Assembly: GCA_016286145.1 (NCBI GenBank) | Contig: JAEESD010000007.1 | Coordinates: 1-32,346 of the forward strand | Source: Bacteroidales bacterium | GTDB lineage: Bacteria > Bacteroidota > Bacteroidia > Bacteroidales > UBA932 | Direction of reading: 5' to 3' | Length of the DNA: 32,346 nucleotides | Shown: in pieces, positions 9,413 to 32,073 of the stretch | How the letters are laid out: each line of letters opens with the position of its first letter | How positions within the stretch are numbered: position 1 is the first letter of the stretch | Translations under genes and position numbers: made by a program | Notes under the pieces: model-generated | Databases searched by the model: none | What the model saw: the letters and a program-made list of their open reading frames with translations, nothing else | What the model was told of the DNA's origin: nothing

Positions 9413-9443
9413 CAAATTTAAGAAATTATTGCAACTTCTTCAA
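9413..9443 (-). promoter_or_regulatory. Bacteroidota-type promoter for the coaX-envelope cluster
   Basis: Read on the minus strand, TAAATTTG (9413-9420) matches TAnnTTTG, and TTG (9441-9443, inside the end of mfd) is 20 bp upstream. The coaX ATG is only 13 bp past the -7 box, so the 5' leader would be very short. Confidence 0.5.
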
Positions 9444-12400
9444 GGTATTGAGCGCCGCTTCTGTAGAATCTATACCCCTGGTGATGATCTTCAACTTGCC
9501 TTCGGTCTGCTTCAGGGTGAAGGGGGAGTTGTTTCCTATCCTCACGAGGAGTTCGCTGAACTGATCGCTCTTGTAGTAAGGAGACAGGGCGTTGGAGATA
9601 AAGAAGCAGATAAACATACCGTTCTTAATAATCACCTTCTCAAAGCCGAGCGAACCTCCCAGATTTCTGATTTTCACCACGTTGAAAAGATTGTCGACCT
9701 CCGGCGGAGTTTCTCCGAAACGGTCTGCCAGCTGGGAGTGGAAGCGGTCTATTTCTTTCTCTGACTTCATCGAATCCAGCTGTTTGTAGATACGTATCTT
9801 TTCGGCGGTAATGTCTATATAGTCATCAGGAATGTAGGCCGGCTGGTCGGTCTCGACCGTGCAGTCCGCGCTGAAGCGGGCCTCTGCCCGGCCGCCGACA
9901 GCTCCGCCCGTCTCTATTCCCAGCTCCTCCATCGCCTCGGCCAGTATCTTCTGATAAGTCTCGTAGCCCATATCCATAATGAATCCGCTCTGCTCCGCGC
10001 CGAGCAGGTTGCCCGCGCCGCGGATGTCGAGGTCCTGCATAGCGATGTTGAAGCCGCTGCCCAGGTCGGAGAACTCCTCGATCGCCTTGAGGCGCTTTCG
10101 GGCATCGTCCGTGATGCTTACCAGCGGCGGAACTATGAGGTAGCAGAACGCCTTCCTGTTCGAACGGCCTACCCTGCCCCTGAGCTGGTGAAGATCACTG
10201 AGGCCTATGTTCTGGGCGTGGTTGATGATTATCGTGTTGGCGTTGGGGATGTCGAGGCCGTTTTCGATGATGGTGGTGCAGAGCAGCAGGTCGTAGTCTC
10301 CGCGGATGAAATCGAGCATCTTGTCCTCGAGTTCCTTTGCCGCCATCTGGCCGTGGGCGATACATATCCTCATATCCGGCACGAGCCGGTGGAGGATCTC
10401 GCCGATGGCGGATAGCTGCTCTACGTTGTTGTGGAGGAAGAAAACCTGGCCTCCGCGCTTGAGTTCGTACTCGATTATGGACTTTATCTCTTTCTCGTCG
10501 AAGAGGATGATCTCGGTCTGGATAGGGATACGGTTGGCCGGCGGGGTAGCGATGATGCTGAGATCGCGCGCGCCGAGCAGCGAAAACTGAAGCGTCCGCG
10601 GGATAGGGGTCGCCGTAAGGGTGAGGGTATCCACCTCAGCCCGCAGCTGGCGCAGCTTTTCCTTGGCCGTGACGCCGAATTTCTGTTCCTCGTCTATTAT
10701 GAGCAGGCCCAGGTCCTTGAATTCGAAGCCGTCGCCGAGCATTTTGTGGGTGCCGATGATTATGTCTATCTGGCCGGAGGCGAGGGCTTTTTTTATCTCC
10801 GCAAGTTCCTTCGGGGTACGCAGGCGGCTGACATAGTCTACCTTGACCGGGAAGGAGGCCAGGCGCGAGCTGAAGGTGGTATAGTGTTGCAGGGCGAGGA
10901 TCGTGGTCGGAACAAGCACGGCGACCTGCTTGCCGTCCGTAGCGGCCTTGAACGCGGCGCGGATGGCTATTTCCGTCTTGCCAAAGCCCACGTCGCCGCA
11001 GATCAGGCGGTCCATCGGGAAGCTCTCTTCCATATCGCGCTTGACCGCGCGGGTTGCCTCTTCCTGGTCCGGGGTGTCCTCGTACATAAACGACGATTCG
11101 AGCTCGGTCTGAAGGTATGAGTCCGCCGAATAGGCGAAGCCCTTCGAGGCCCGGCGTTTCGCGTAGAGTTGGATAAGCTCCTTCGCTATGTCTTTAACCT
11201 TACTCTTGGCCCCGTTTTTAAGGGCGATCCACGATTTGGAGCCGAGCTTGTTGATGCGCGGGGTCTCACCGTCGGCCGGGCGGAAGCGCGAGATCTTATG
11301 GAGGGCGTGGACCGAAACGAAGACGACATCGCCGTCTTTGTAAGTCAGCTTGACGACCTCCTTCATACGTCCATAGTCGTCCTTGACCCTGACCAGGCCG
11401 CCGAAGACGCCTACGCCGTGGTCGATATGGACTATATAGTCGCCTATGTTGAACGAGGCGAGGTCGTTGAGGGTGAGTTGCTCGGTCTTTTCAACCGAAC
11501 GGCGGATCGAGACGCGGTGGAAGCGGTCGAAGATTTCGTGGTCTGTATAGTGACAGGTTTTGTCTTGCTCGTCGATAAAGCCGTTGTGGATGCTCTTGCC
11601 CGTTATAAACTCGGGCAGGGGACAGCGCTCTTCTTCGAGGATGGAGCGGAGCCTGTCGGTCTGAGTCTGCTTTTCGCCGTAGATGTAAACCTTGTAGCCG
11701 GTTTCGGTTTTTGTTCGGATATCGGCTGTAAAGAGTTCGAAGTTTTTATTGAAAACCGGCTGGGGAGAGACGCTGAACTGAACGGCATCTGCTTCTTTTC
11801 GGTCGATAGGAATTTCGAGAAAGACCCTTTTGTAGCTAGAGGTAAGGCTGAAGAATTCCCTGTCCTTGTACATATCTGAGGAGTCCAGCCAGATTACAGA
11901 ATCGGCGGACAGGGCCTCGAGTATGTTTTGCGATGCGCCCCCCGGATTACACACCATATCGGAGATTATCCTTACTTCCGGAATTTCTTCTCCGGAAAGC
12001 TGGGTGTTGCAGTTGAAGGTGTGGATGTATTCTATTTCATCGCCCCAGAAAGAAACACGGACGGCCTCACTGTCTGAGTATGAGAAAAGATCGATGATGC
12101 TTCCTCTTACCGCGAACTGTCCGGGGGATGAGACGAAGTCTACTCTTTCAAAGCCCAGGTCGGATAGCTTTTCAATTATTTCAGAATGGGATATTTCCTG
12201 GCCCTTTTTCAGTTCAAAGGCGGAAGCCGTAATATTGTTGCTGAGCGGAATAAGTTCCTCGAGGGCCTCGGGGAAAGTAACTATTACGGTAAGGTCTTCT
12301 TTGTTTGAGGAGAGAATACTCTGAACTGCCGAGGTTCGCTGGACGCTGAGAGATGATTTATAGTTGCTGCGCTCAACCCCGGCGCCTGAAGCGGGGAGGA

Positions 12401-12614
12401 AGAATACCCTATCTCCTTCGATCAGGTTATAGAGATCGTTGGCGCAGTATTCCGCGGCCTCGCTGTTAGGAAGCACTATAAGATGGAGACCCTTCTCGGC
12501 ACAGTTTGAAAAGACAAACCACCGGGCGGAGAGAAATAATCCCCGGCAGAATATTTCCTTTGAGGAAACTATCCTGCTTTTCAAAAGAGCGCTGGCGGCA
12601 GAATTAACCTGCAT
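9426..12614 (-). CDS. mfd: transcription-repair coupling factor Mfd
   Basis: Mfd is a DNA translocase that removes RNA polymerase stalled at lesions and recruits the UvrABC excision machinery. The 1062-residue protein, slightly short for the family, shows the expected order. A UvrB-like N-terminal region covers about residues 1-330. The RNA-polymerase-interacting domain begins near 388 (FNIGDYIVHIDHGVGVF). The helicase motor follows, with Walker A GDVGFGKT near 538, a DEEQ box (IIDEEQKFG) near 640 and the LRGRVGRS motif near 810. The TRCF C-terminal domain lies at about 930-1040. The ATG at 12612-12614 lies beside the DnaA-box cluster, with a relaxed box ending only 6 bp upstream. It is transcribed divergently from ruvB. 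Confidence 0.97.
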   Translation of the reverse strand: MQVNSAASALLKSRIVSSKEIFCRGLFLSARWFVFSNCAEKGLHLIVLPNSEAAEYCANDLYNLIEGDRVFFLPASGAGVERSNYKSSLSVQRTSAVQSILSSNKEDLTVIVTFPEALEELIPLSNNITASAFELKKGQEISHSEIIEKLSDLGFERVDFVSSPGQFAVRGSIIDLFSYSDSEAVRVSFWGDEIEYIHTFNCNTQLSGEEIPEVRIISDMVCNPGGASQNILEALSADSVIWLDSSDMYKDREFFSLTSSYKRVFLEIPIDRKEADAVQFSVSPQPVFNKNFELFTADIRTKTETGYKVYIYGEKQTQTDRLRSILEEERCPLPEFITGKSIHNGFIDEQDKTCHYTDHEIFDRFHRVSIRRSVEKTEQLTLNDLASFNIGDYIVHIDHGVGVFGGLVRVKDDYGRMKEVVKLTYKDGDVVFVSVHALHKISRFRPADGETPRINKLGSKSWIALKNGAKSKVKDIAKELIQLYAKRRASKGFAYSADSYLQTELESSFMYEDTPDQEEATRAVKRDMEESFPMDRLICGDVGFGKTEIAIRAAFKAATDGKQVAVLVPTTILALQHYTTFSSRLASFPVKVDYVSRLRTPKELAEIKKALASGQIDIIIGTHKMLGDGFEFKDLGLLIIDEEQKFGVTAKEKLRQLRAEVDTLTLTATPIPRTLQFSLLGARDLSIIATPPANRIPIQTEIILFDEKEIKSIIEYELKRGGQVFFLHNNVEQLSAIGEILHRLVPDMRICIAHGQMAAKELEDKMLDFIRGDYDLLLCTTIIENGLDIPNANTIIINHAQNIGLSDLHQLRGRVGRSNRKAFCYLIVPPLVSITDDARKRLKAIEEFSDLGSGFNIAMQDLDIRGAGNLLGAEQSGFIMDMGYETYQKILAEAMEELGIETGGAVGGRAEARFSADCTVETDQPAYIPDDYIDITAEKIRIYKQLDSMKSEKEIDRFHSQLADRFGETPPEVDNLFNVVKIRNLGGSLGFEKVIIKNGMFICFFISNALSPYYKSDQFSELLVRIGNNSPFTLKQTEGKLKIITRGIDSTEAALNTLKKLQ

Positions 12615-12654
12615 CCTGATGTGTAAAAGCTTGTGGAAAACCGGTGTATAAAAC

Positions 12655-12686
12655 TGTGGATAAAACAGGGTGATGAGTTATCCACA
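12655..12686. promoter_or_regulatory. pair of perfect DnaA boxes in inverted repeat
   Basis: TGTGGATAA (12655-12663) and TTATCCACA (12678-12686) are exact inverted copies of the DnaA 9-mer, 14 bp apart. Confidence 0.75.
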
Positions 12687-12820
12687 ACGGTTTTACAAAG
12701 TTTCCAACAAGTAATTAAAAACGCCTTGTGTACCTAATAAATTGATACTCAGCAGGGTTTTATGTTTATCAACATTTCCACAGCAGTAATAAAATCAACA
12801 AAAAATCAAGAAATAAAGAT

Positions 12821-12828
12821 TATATTTG
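12821..12828 (+). promoter_or_regulatory. -7 promoter element upstream of ruvB
   Basis: TATATTTG matches TAnnTTTG and lies 25 bp before the ruvB ATG. I see no convincing -33 TTG at the usual spacing; the upstream DNA is an A-rich stretch. Confidence 0.4.
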
Positions 12829-12853
12829 TAGACCAATTAACCAGCCAGGGGAA

Positions 12854-13879
12854 ATGTCAGATTTCGACCCTCACCGCAGTATCGAGGACAAAGATAAGGA
12901 TTTGGACGGAATTATCCGACCGCAGGACCTTGAAGATTTCACGGGTCAGCGGGAGATTGTGTCCAATCTCCATATCTACATCCAGGCCGCAAAACTCAGG
13001 GGCGAGTCTTTGGACCACACCCTTTTCCACGGCCCTCCCGGTCTGGGTAAAACAACTCTGGCCCACATCATCGCAAACGAGATGGGTGTGAATATGAAAA
13101 TCACATCCGGTCCTGTTCTCGATAAACCCGGAGATCTTGCCGGCCTTCTTACTTCGCTTGAGCCGGGAGATGTCCTTTTCATTGATGAAATTCATCGTCT
13201 TTCTCCTGAAGTTGAGGAATATCTGTATTCCGCAATGGAGGATTTCGTAATAGATATTATGATCGACAAAGGCCCCGGAGCCCGTTCGGTCAGAATTTCA
13301 CTTAACCCGTTTACTCTGGTAGGAGCTACTACCAGAAGCGGTCTTCTCACAGCTCCTCTAAGGGCCCGTTTCGGCATTACCTGCGCCCTGGAATATTATG
13401 ATGTTGAGGATCTCAAGCGAATTGTAAAACGCAGTGCAGCTATCCTTAAGGTTGACATAGACGATCAGGCAGCCCACGAAATAGCAATGAGAAGCCGCGG
13501 TACGCCTCGTATCTCAAATGCTTTGCTTCGCCGAGTGCGTGATTTTGCCCAGGTGATGGGAGACGGAAAGATAGATATAAAGATAGCGAAGTATGCTCTT
13601 GATAAACTAAAGATAGATACTCGCGGACTTGACGCTATAGACAATAAGATTCTGAGTACTATCATCAATACTTTCAAGGGAGGTCCTGTAGGAGCCAATA
13701 CCATAGCTACCGCTATAGGAGAGGATCAGGGAACCTTCGAGGAAGTATATGAGCCTTTCCTTATCAAGGAAGGATTTATAGTTCGTACTCAGAGAGGCCG
13801 AATCGCTACTGACCTGGCCTATAAACACCTTGGAGTCAACCCCAACAGGGTTTCTTCCGACACTTTATTTGGAGAATAG
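12854..13879 (+). CDS. ruvB: Holliday junction branch-migration helicase RuvB
   Basis: RuvB is the hexameric AAA+ motor that, with RuvA, drives branch migration of Holliday junctions. The 341-residue protein is complete. It has Walker A GPPGLGKT at residues 60-67, Walker B FIDEIH at 109-114, a sensor region [18 protein letters not shown], and the C-terminal winged-helix part with [14 protein letters not shown]. The start at 12854 is preceded by AGGGGAA and leads into a short acidic N-terminus before the conserved [11 protein letters not shown]. It is the first rightward gene after the candidate origin. RuvA is encoded 7 kb downstream rather than next to it. The sdhA gene follows after 23 bp with no terminator visible. 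Confidence 0.97.
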
Positions 13880-26727: not shown

Positions 26728-29700
26728 ATGGCTTTTGTACACCTTCATCTCCACACCCAGTACAGTATTCTTGACGGTCTTACGAACATCAAGAAGCTAT
26801 TCGCGCGCGCGAGGGAGCTGGGTATGCCTGCCCTGGCCATCACAGACCACGGCAACATGTTCGGAGTGAAGGAGTTCTTCCGTTGGGCAGACGACAAAAG
26901 CAACAAAGACGCCGACGGAAATTATATCGTAAGGCCCATCATTGGCTGCGAGATCTACGTCACGCGCCACTACGACCACCACCTCAAGGACAACGACCAC
27001 AAACGTTACTATCACCTCATCCTTCTGGCAAAGAACTACGCCGGGTATAAAAACCTGATGAAGATAGTCTCCACGGCCCACATCGAGGGCATGTACTATC
27101 GTCCGCGCGTAAGCCACGAAATAGTCGAGAAGTACCACGAAAACCTTATCTGCAGCTCTGCCTGCCTTGCCGGAGAAGTCTCCAAGAGCATCCTGGCGGG
27201 GGATATGGAAGCTGCGAGGGCTGCGATAGCCTGGCATAAAAAGGTTTTCGGAGACGACTATTACCTGGAGGTGATGCTCCATAAACCCGAGGATCCGAGC
27301 CTCAGCCTTGACGTGTACAAAGGACAGCTTACAGTTAATCAGGCTATTTTCCAGCTGGCAGAGGAGACGGGGACGAAGGTGATTGCCACCAACGACGTCC
27401 ACTTCCTGATGAAGGAAGACGGTCCGGTCCACGACCGCCTCATCTGCCTTACGATGAACAATGACATCGACGACCCCAACCGAATCAGGTATACTCAGCA
27501 GGAGTATCTTAAGAGCGAGGCCGAGATGCGCGATCTGTTCCCGGAACACCCCGAAGTAATAGACAATACGATCGAGGTCGCCTCCAAGATTGAGCAGTAC
27601 AAGATAGACCGTCCGCCTATCCTTCCTAAGTTCAAGATCGATCCAGAGTTCCTCGCCAGGCGCGACGAGTATCTCGAAAAATACTCCGAGATAATCGAGA
27701 ACGGCAAATATTCGATTGTCAAGGACAAGAAAACGGGCGAAATAGTCAGTAAGGAGTATCGTGGAGATGATTTCTGTACTTCTGTAGCGTATCTGTGTCA
27801 CCTTACCTACGAGGGCGCCCACAAGCGTTACGGCCCTACTCTTACCGAAGAGCAGAAGTCCCGAATAGAGTTCGAGCTGAAGACCATCTCGTTTATGGGC
27901 TTCCCGGACTACTTCCTGATCGTCCAGGACTATATCGCAGCTTCGCGCCGGATGGGCTATCTGGTAGGCCCTGGAAGAGGTTCCGCCGCAGGTTCGGTAG
28001 TGGCCTATTGCCTCTGGATTACCAATCTCGACCCGATTAAATACCAGCTCCTGTTCGAGCGTTTCCTCAATCCGGATCGTATCAATATGCCGGATATAGA
28101 CGTAGACTTCGAGAACCTTACCGCGGCCCACGAATACGTAGAACATACCTACGGAGCGGACCACGTCTCGCGCGTCATCACCTTCGGAACGATGCTCGCC
28201 AAGGGTGCGATCAAGGACGTTGCCCGAATAAGCCACGTCTCGATAGACGAATCCAACAGGCTTACGAAGATGGTCCCCGACCGTCTTTCCGAAAAGATAG
28301 AGAAGGAATATCCCTTCAACCCTAAGCTGGATGAGCTTAAACCTGGTTTTAAGCAGGTAGAGAAGGACGGAAAGATATTCCAGGTAGGTAAGGAAGATAC
28401 GGATGTCAAGGTTACTCTCGGCAGCTGTTTCCGCCTGGTCCCGGATATGAAAAACGAGCTTGAGAATGGCCCTGAGCTTAACAGGGAAGTGCTCAAGTAC
28501 GCCAGCCAGCTAGAGGGAACCATCCGCCAGGTCGGCCAGCACGCCTGCGCTACCATCATCGGCCCCAGCGACCTTACCGAGAATATCCCTATCTGCCTTT
28601 CGAAGGATAAGGAAACGGGACTGGACGTCTGGACCTCGCAATACGACGGACACTATATCGAGAGCGTAGGAATGCTCAAGATGGACTTCCTGGGACTGAA
28701 CACCCTCTCGATTATCCACAAAACTCTTGACAATATCAAGGCCCGCCACGGTATCGATATCGACATCGAGGCTATCCCTATCGACGATAAACCGACCTTT
28801 GAACTCTACGGACGCGGAGATACTACGGTAGTATTCCAGTTCGAGTCCGAGGGTATGAAAAGCTGGCTCCAGAAGCTCCACCCGGAGCGTTTTGAAGACC
28901 TTATCGCTATGAACGCCCTGTATCGTCCGGGTCCTATGGACTATATTCCGGACTTTGTAGACAGAAAGCAGGGCCTTAAGCCTATCGAGTATGATCTCCC
29001 CGAGATGGAGGAGTATCTTACTGATACATACGGAATTACGGTTTATCAAGAGCAGGTTATGCTTCTGTCCCAGAAGCTCGCAAACTTCACTAAAGGCCAG
29101 GCAGATACCCTCCGTAAGGCTATGGGTAAGAAGCAGCTGGACGTAATGATGGACCTTAAGGAGAAGTTCATGAGCGGCGGTATGGCCAACGGCCACCCCG
29201 AGAAGGTCCTGGACAAGATCTGGAAAGACTGGGAGAAATTCGCTCAGTACGCGTTCAACAAGTCCCACGCAACCTGCTACGCCTGGGTCAGCTATCAGAC
29301 AGGATGGCTCAAATGTCACTATACAGCAGAGTTCCTTTCCGCCAATCTCTCCTGCAATCTCTCCGATATGGACGAGATCAAGAAGATTATGGCAGACTGC
29401 AAGCTCCATAAGATAAAGGTTCTTAACCCTGATATAAACGAGTCTGAGGCCAGTTTCACCGTAAACAAGGCTGGAGACATACGCTTTGGACTTGGCGGAA
29501 TGAAGGGCTTTGGCTCCAATATCGTAGACACTATCGTAAGGCAGAGAGCCCTGAACGGCCAGTTTAAAGACGTTTGGGATTTTGTAGAGAGGATGGCAGA
29601 GTATAATGGGATGGATCCCAAGAACAACGCTCCGGTAGGAAGGAAGCCTCTTGAATCGCTCATCTACGCGGGCGCATTCGACTCCTTCGGCTACAAACGC

Positions 29701-30762: not shown

Positions 30763-32073
30763 ATGAAAAGAGCTGCTTATAAGGATCTTTTACACTGGAA
30801 AAGCAATAAATTCCACCGTCCCCTCCTGGTTTATGGCGCAAGACGAACAGGTAAGACTTATTTGCTTAAAGAGTTCGCAAAAACGGAGTATGAGAAGGTA
30901 ATTTATCTCAATTTTGAGGAGAATCCGGACTACAAAACCGTATTTCAGAACGAGCCTGAAGCCAGTCGCGTACTTCGCGAAATTTCATCACTCTCAAAGA
31001 TAGATGTCACCCCCGGTAACACTCTTCTTATATGGGATGAAATTCAGTCTTGTCCAGAGGCTCTCAGTGTGCTTCCCGATTTTGTAGAGTCTGACTTCGG
31101 TTTCGACATTATAGTCTGCGGATTTCTTCCCGCAAGCCCTAAGGCAGAGGCAAAGATTGAGGAATTAAAGCAATCAAGGACTATTGAGACCCTAAGACTC
31201 TTCCCTTTTTCCTACGATGAGTTCCTCTCCGCCACCGGCCATGATAATATGGCGGGACTTCTGCGTAGTCTCGACTGGGGCGCTATCGGCTCTCTTCTTC
31301 CGAAGTACAATCAGTACCTGAAAGAATATCTTTTTTGCGGTGGAATGCCTCAGGCCGTAGCGGCCTTTGTCGAAGGACAGCTTCCTTCTCAGGTCCGCGC
31401 AGTACAGAAAGACCTTCTTACTGCCTCGGATAACGACATTCTGCGTTTTGCTCCTAAGCGCCACATAGATGAAATTACCGCTGTCCTGAATTCAGTGTTC
31501 CCTCAGCTTCTTGACGAGAACCAGAAATTCAACCTCTCAAAACTAAAAGATGGCGCCCGCCTGAAGGATTACGACAGTTCAATTTCCTGGCTCGTCCGCG
31601 CGGGACTTATATATAAGGTACATAAACTAAGTACGGTTTCGATGCCCATCGAATTCTTCCAGGACGCGAGGAGCTTCAAGCTGTTCCCTTTCGATCCCGG
31701 AATGGCGGCCGCCCTGGCAGATATAGATCCCGCAAGAATTCTGGTGGGCGATGAGGCCTTCAAGGGTTTCAATGGCGCCCTGCTCCAGACCCTCGTTTTG
31801 AACCAGATCGTTTTTCGCGGAGATCCCGTCTGCTACTATGGAGTTCAGGGATCTACCCTCTCTATAGACTTTATCGTCCAGGAGCTTTCGCGTATAGTAC
31901 CGGTAGAGGTGATGCCCTATCAGAACGGAAATTCAAAAGCTATGAGGCTCTTTTTCGAAAAGAACCCCGCGCGAAAAGGAATACGCGCTTCGCTCGACAA
32001 TCACTTCGGCCGCGAGTGGATGGATAATGTCCCCGTCTATGCGGTCTCGTTCTTTCTTGCTGGTCTGTCATGA
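30763..32073 (+). CDS. AAA-type ATPase with DUF4143 C-terminal domain
   Basis: The 436-residue protein has an N-terminal AAA_14-type P-loop domain (Walker A GARRTGKT near residues 25-32; Walker B LLIWDEIQ near 88-95). A C-terminal DUF4143-type domain, probably nuclease-fold-like, follows with SLSIDFIVQE and VPVEVMP strands. Such ATPases are widespread in Bacteroidota genomes. Their role is unknown, though toxin-antitoxin-like and DNA-related roles have been suggested. The usual arrangement is a stand-alone gene. Here it has its own promoter and overlaps the lipoate-ligase gene as ATGA, so the two may be co-translated. The gene is intact. Confidence 0.85.
   Translation: MKRAAYKDLLHWKSNKFHRPLLVYGARRTGKTYLLKEFAKTEYEKVIYLNFEENPDYKTVFQNEPEASRVLREISSLSKIDVTPGNTLLIWDEIQSCPEALSVLPDFVESDFGFDIIVCGFLPASPKAEAKIEELKQSRTIETLRLFPFSYDEFLSATGHDNMAGLLRSLDWGAIGSLLPKYNQYLKEYLFCGGMPQAVAAFVEGQLPSQVRAVQKDLLTASDNDILRFAPKRHIDEITAVLNSVFPQLLDENQKFNLSKLKDGARLKDYDSSISWLVRAGLIYKVHKLSTVSMPIEFFQDARSFKLFPFDPGMAAALADIDPARILVGDEAFKGFNGALLQTLVLNQIVFRGDPVCYYGVQGSTLSIDFIVQELSRIVPVEVMPYQNGNSKAMRLFFEKNPARKGIRASLDNHFGREWMDNVPVYAVSFFLAGLS

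Follow-up and report, generated by a model that had tools for sequence, protein, structure and literature searches.

The mfd-ruvB gap and its DnaA boxes

The window analyzed here, meaning the whole stretch of DNA under study, is an entire contig of 32,346 bp (C127) from a 193-contig, 1.79-Mb bacterial genome (G000) that is 91% complete and 7.5% contaminated. Within it, the divergent genes mfd and ruvB enclose 239 bp (12615..12853) whose limits are the exact starts of the two open reading frames. Of the named relatives of its RuvB, one (87% identity) is labeled Candidatus Cryptobacteroides, and most of the rest come from MAGs assigned to Bacteroidales or Bacteroidia, often named after rumen or gut, so that the window's genus, judged from these RuvB relatives, is probably Candidatus Cryptobacteroides (Bacteroidales). 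The features of the locus are as follows.

9426..12614, minus strand: mfd, transcription-repair coupling factor, left flank (TIGR00580 above cut-off)
12615..12853, no strand: mfd-ruvB intergenic region, likely oriC (box cluster, conservation in the genus, composition switch at the equivalent gap of the relative G013)
12620..12628, minus strand: weak DnaA box TTTTACACA, two mismatches, first of a phased run (sequence match)
12632..12640, minus strand: DnaA box TTTTCCACA, one mismatch, phased run (sequence match)
12643..12651, minus strand: weak DnaA box TTATACACC, two mismatches, phased run (sequence match)
12655..12663, minus strand: perfect DnaA box TTATCCACA, end of the phased run (sequence match)
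12678..12686, plus strand: perfect DnaA box TTATCCACA, first of the forward arm (sequence match)
12766..12774, plus strand: DnaA box TTATCAACA, one mismatch, at the position most conserved in relatives (sequence match)
12774..12782, plus strand: weak tandem DnaA box ATTTCCACA, two mismatches (starts 8 bp past the start of the preceding box)
12783..12820, no strand: A-rich stretch, predicted unwinding element (low G+C; A-rich at the equivalent place in relatives)
12821..12828, plus strand: TATATTTG, predicted ruvB promoter element (fits TAnnTTTG, which we take to be the -7 promoter element of Bacteroidota; kept in relatives)
12854..13879, plus strand: ruvB, Holliday junction helicase, right flank (TIGR00635 and NF000868 above cut-off)

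A preliminary description of this DNA had proposed the gap as a candidate chromosomal origin, and most of the features it named are present. The two perfect boxes are inverted with 14 bp between them, and the third perfect TTATCCACA of the window lies far off at 28712 within a dnaE-like open reading frame, so two of the three copies do sit together as described. Weaker boxes were likewise found nearby, with one mismatch at 12632 and 12766 and with two at 12620, 12643, and 12774, and the AT-rich flank put at about 27% G+C measured 27.7% (12706-12835), against 33.9% for the interval and 51.7% for the window. This AT-rich stretch adjoins the boxes, and G+C falls to 25.0% across 12776-12835. The exception is the AAAACCG/CGGTTTT pair (starts at 12637 and 12688), which had been named as an extended dyad; its center at ~12665.5 is off the axis of the perfect boxes at ~12670.5, so that it does not lengthen their dyad, and we gave it no weight. 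Further along the window, after the dnaE-like frame, lies a gene for an AAA_14/DUF4143 ATPase (30763-32073, plus strand), a family common in variable regions.

The arrangement of the boxes differs between the two sides of the gap. On the mfd side, four minus-strand boxes, two of them weak, have starts 12, 11, and 12 bp apart, or about one helical turn, and on the ruvB side three boxes (12678, 12766, and 12774) all face forward beside A-rich DNA, the last two forming a tandem pair of one strong and one weak box that overlap by 1 bp. Neither four TTWTCMACA sites nor two perfect boxes arose in any of 2000 dinucleotide shuffles of the interval (means 0.037 and 0.0015), and the window as a whole held 11 sites with at most one mismatch where 4.28 were expected, a number that 0 of 100 shuffles attained.

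Across the 1.79-Mb genome we located 59 TTWTCMACA sites, and only C127:12632-12774, with four, brings more than two close together. A better cluster elsewhere in the same genome, which the preliminary description had named as evidence that would speak against it, did not appear among these 59 sites. On contig C83, two perfect inverted copies of TTATCCACA (1392 and 1509) stand 117 bp apart and form the second-closest perfect pair in the genome. The genome encodes DnaA, with dnaA on a further contig (C119, locus L001; PF00308 match). We considered the dnaA locus as an origin and rejected it; C119 has two copies of TTTTCCACA (positions 2915 and 3135), 220 bp apart and ~0.5-0.75 kb upstream of the dnaA frame, and this pair possibly serves dnaA control. 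The oriC predicted for Prevotella intermedia likewise lies away from dnaA, a placement described in excerpts of that report as common in Bacteroidetes (PMC4755523).

Conservation of the locus and box array in relatives

Comparison of 110 ruvB loci, made up of 30 that included the window's own and 80 from further relatives, revealed mfd adjacent and divergent at 104. The six remaining comprised two that end too near ruvB to tell (L005 and L151) and four from other families of the order (L007, L011, L023, and L028), which had no mfd beside ruvB, the upstream sequence of L007 being just 0.8 kb. The arrangement recurs within the genus and not in these four outside loci. Two genomes, G019 and G032, each carried two equal-scoring RuvB copies on separate contigs, perhaps reflecting duplicated assembly.

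Once reduced to 96 distinct intergenic sequences, the window's included, the 104 loci held TTWTCMACA 225 times versus 2.0 expected from mononucleotide shuffling, with 55 occurrences in 115 kb of flanks. At least one site was present in 90 of the 96, at least two in 76, and at least three in 39, and the motif was absent from 6 of the 104 mfd-ruvB intergenics. Conservation of the boxes in related genomes, which had been suggested as a check, is strong by this measure. The two-sided layout is conserved as well, with all 93 reverse boxes falling in mfd-side bins (-300 to -190 from the ruvB start) and 130 of 132 forward boxes in ruvB-side bins (-180 to -80). Steps of 11 or 12 bp separate 95 box pairs on the mfd side, and runs of at least three boxes phased at 11-12 bp (at most two mismatches) were found in 71 of 96 genomes compared with none of the 96 after a single shuffle of each. 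Boxes that step by 8 bp are recurrent on the ruvB side (59 pairs), and the stretch beside those boxes is 50% A and 4% G on the plus strand. Intergenic G+C was below that of the mfd flank in 96 of 96. Most intergenics span 220-300 bp; those of L027 and L030 reach 372 and 486 bp because each has gained, to the mfd side of its boxes, an insert whose ends are inverted, which may be a small element, palindromic or MITE-like, next to the probable origin.

Every one of the 96 intergenics also carries TAnnTTTG within 60 bp of the ruvB start, and a gap that is at the same time a divergent promoter region would suit another explanation, namely that the boxes provide DnaA-responsive control of mfd and ruvB, with DnaA acting only as a transcription regulator and the origin lying elsewhere. 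DnaA regulates some genes, which also favors this explanation, but it does not predict that the gap should be the largest box group in G000, nor the composition switch in G013 and the outward rplB of 14 of 15 genomes described below, and we consider it very unlikely. As a secondary function, the gap boxes might still help to control ruvB.

Strand composition, rplB direction, and the origin reading

Cumulative GC skew had been suggested as a further check on the gap. Raw GC skew within the window is weak and tracks gene direction, so we used four-fold sites corrected for gene strand, and because the window is short and its skew weak, we analyzed long contigs of relatives, where for every possible origin each gene's coding-strand skew at four-fold sites was fitted to its leading or lagging position. 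In G013 (contig C1, 577 kb) the T-A fit was best at 417.5 kb (R2 0.59; bootstrap 415-420 kb; top of 300 permutations 0.039), and the mfd-ruvB gap at ~417.9 kb lies within 2.5 kb of this switch. The fraction of leading-strand genes peaks at 417.5 kb, 25-kb bins flip sign at the gap, and the raw cumulative GC and keto minima (418,064 and 418,260) fall near the start of the ruvB match at 418,033, only 31 bp from the GC minimum. In neither G013 nor G016 was the gap marked by gene-corrected GC skew, which in G013, unlike the T-A skew, had its best fit at ~55 kb (R2 0.126, higher than every permutation).

Two further long contigs gave less defined positions. In G016 (C1, 675 kb), T-A skew fitted best at 185-200 kb (R2 0.16; top permutation 0.029; bootstrap 160-255 kb), with the gap at 201.9 kb, the raw GC minimum at 224.6 kb, and the keto minimum at 650 kb, a result compatible with an origin in the gap but broad. 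In G121 (C3, 311 kb read, 62% G+C), the best T-A fit at 242.5 kb was below the 95% permutation level, the best GC fit at 255 kb was just above it, the bootstrap spanned 170-332 kb, and the raw GC minimum was at 165.8 kb; although both fits are close to the gap at 250 kb, the skew of this genome is not convincing as support. When 10-kb flanks were pooled over 77 of 79 loci, the sign of the T-A skew was as an origin predicts next to ruvB (0.297 leading, 0.125 lagging) and reversed next to mfd (0.158 leading, 0.275 lagging), a mixed outcome that we count against the origin reading. Taken singly, 45 of 57 loci had a higher leading than lagging value, and the window itself showed leading above lagging on both sides, with few genes. 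The skew case comes chiefly from G013, as the sharp switch is seen in that one genome only. Run in this way on relatives, the skew check placed the cumulative GC minimum of G013 at the ruvB start, with G016 broad and G121 not convincing.

We also scanned the same genomes for rival clusters (~1.75 Mb of G016, 577 kb of G013, and 311 kb of G121). The gap holds the densest 300 bp of the scanned stretch in G013 (three TTWTCMACA), and the gaps of G016 and G121 hold two each, each tied with one other 300-bp place. Phased triplets were best at the gap in the window and in G121; in G016 the triplet at the gap was tied with an equally good one at G016:C2:121,897, and over the 577 kb of G013 there was no phased triplet at the gap and three weaker ones elsewhere.

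These data bear on the possibility that the origin lies near the gap, within tens of kb, and that the boxes are a DnaA-titrating or -reactivating site of the datA or DARS kind. The 160-255 kb permitted by G016 would accommodate such an origin, as would G121 with no clear position, but the T-A switch of G013 is confined to 415-420 kb with the gap at ~417.9 kb, the raw GC minimum there is 31 bp from the ruvB match start, and no 300-bp place in the stretches read beats the gap in TTWTCMACA, with the single ties in G016 and G121. We regard a nearby origin as having even less chance than regulation alone.

The direction of one highly expressed gene, rplB, offered another view of the locus. Among 151 genomes of the genus searched, rplB was found in 104, ruvB in 123, and both on one contig in 15, and for an origin set immediately upstream of ruvB, rplB was transcribed outward in 14 of these 15, comprising all 8 genomes that have it on the ruvB side and 6 of the 7 that have it on the mfd side. 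Adjacency of mfd was seen under the same handle for six of the 15 (G013, G016, G017, G018, G033, and G036). An rplB that switches sides yet keeps pointing outward is the pattern expected from inversions around an origin. The sole genome with rplB towards the gap is G065 (contig C1; ruvB 184,754, rplB 298,001), in which part of one arm may have been inverted, the assembly may be wrong, or the origin may have moved.

Taken with the boxes, the conservation across the genus, and the switch in G013, the proposal of a chromosomal origin in the mfd-ruvB gap is supported, and the 239-bp gap is, with high probability, the oriC of this uncultured bacterium. The sequence evidence argues strongly for this reading, for the genus directly and for the window by homology together with its own box cluster. 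Provided that the window's species behaves like its relatives, DnaA would bind the two opposed box arrays and fill the phased run on the mfd side as an oligomer, and the tandem pair at 12766-12782 would steer it onto the A-rich DNA at ~12783-12820. This DNA would then melt and take the helicase, and two forks would leave the opened gap in opposite directions.

A DnaA residue, box base 6, and known origins

We next compare the boxes with the protein predicted to read them. The window's DnaA carries KDHSTV where E. coli (1J1V) and B. subtilis have RDHTTV and Aquifex has KDHTTV, so that a Ser takes the place of the first Thr, which the order D433-H434-T435 in the available parts of two reports (PMC7561715, PMC5742627) identifies as residue 435. 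Those excerpts list E. coli T435 among residues in specific contact with the box (PMC7561715), place DnaA helix 434-451 on the TnCACA part, and describe T435M as defective in box binding (PMC5742627). Across 24 genomes of the genus the residue is Ser in four (G000, G176, G100, and G031) and Ala in the other 20.

Box sequences were available from 20 of these 24 genomes, 4 with Ser and 16 with Ala, and base 6 of the box varied with the residue, being C in 11 and A in 2 boxes of the Ser genomes versus C in 9 and A in 41 of the Ala genomes. All 4 Ser genomes and none of the 16 Ala genomes had a majority of C (one Ala genome was tied), giving a Fisher p of 0.0002 if genomes are independent; the Ser genomes form one clade in the RuvB tree (support 89/86, below the starred level) and so are not independent, and the covariation may be a single change. 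Six of the Ala genomes were included on account of a C-type box in their intergenics, a choice that works against the trend. The G031 intergenic ends at the contig end (one exact box), and L072 was assigned to G100 on the ground that the two gave an identical place.

In other families of the order the residue was Ala in 7 of 7 readable genomes (10 tried). One locus from another Bacteroidales family (L198, G053) has TTTTCAACA and TGTTGATAA (725 and 759) next to dnaA at a distance of 34 bp, so an A at base 6 may not be confined to the genus, and a search of G050, G053, and G059, from three other families, with one pattern for two close same-strand boxes, the first TTATCMACA, gave no match. According to the accessible text of a review, most genomes have boxes that depart from TTATNCACA by no more than one mismatch (PMC10797057), so TTATCAACA alone is not strange and the coupling to the residue is the new point. 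Ala DnaA with TTWTCAACA, set against the Ser of the window's clade and its shift towards TTWTCCACA, may mean that the origin code was rewritten in this Bacteroidales group and then partly written back, with one recognition-helix residue setting one origin base and the origin kept between mfd and ruvB, a proposal that we make tentatively and to which we give slightly less than an even chance. The covariation between residue and base offers a direct test of initiator and site set changing together, though one protein reads many sites at once.

Our literature search, made in one library of papers, showed no mfd-ruvB origin in the titles and opening lines of abstracts among the matches listed, and within that library it gave no paper joining Cryptobacteroides with a replication origin. 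As Bacteroidota origins are reported away from dnaA in the portion of the P. intermedia paper available (PMC4755523), such origins would be easily missed in draft genomes of uncultured gut bacteria. A fixed mfd-ruvB landmark would anchor metagenome read-depth growth estimates across the genus.

With respect to known systems, the excerpted description of the basal unwinding system (PMC8287927) has a strong and a weak tandem box directly beside AT-rich DNA, as here, whereas the window's tandem boxes overlap by 1 bp. Its DnaA-trios, taken from the same excerpts as at least three trios with middle A starting 0-16 bp from the box, are not distinguishable here from shuffled sequence (in 90 genomes, 31 versus 32 with a shuffled tail for A on the complement strand, and 87 versus 69 on the plus strand). 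The gap differs from DnaA-dependent oriC of the E. coli and B. subtilis type in lying between mfd and ruvB, away from dnaA, and in having boxes that in most relatives read are mostly TTWTCAACA, not TTWTCCACA. It resembles that type in its grouped 9-bp boxes with a same-strand run about one turn apart, in the AT-rich DNA beside the last box, and in the leading-strand composition switch at the site in G013. As far as the available parts of those reports describe them, the predicted oriC of Prevotella intermedia OMA14 (PMC4755523) and that of Elizabethkingia meningoseptica (PMC8994065) are similar in combining a box cluster with a skew switch at a place not beside dnaA. The probable mfd-ruvB origin is, as such, a further case of a known kind, the DnaA-dependent oriC, and the covariation between the DnaA residue and the box base is its novel part.
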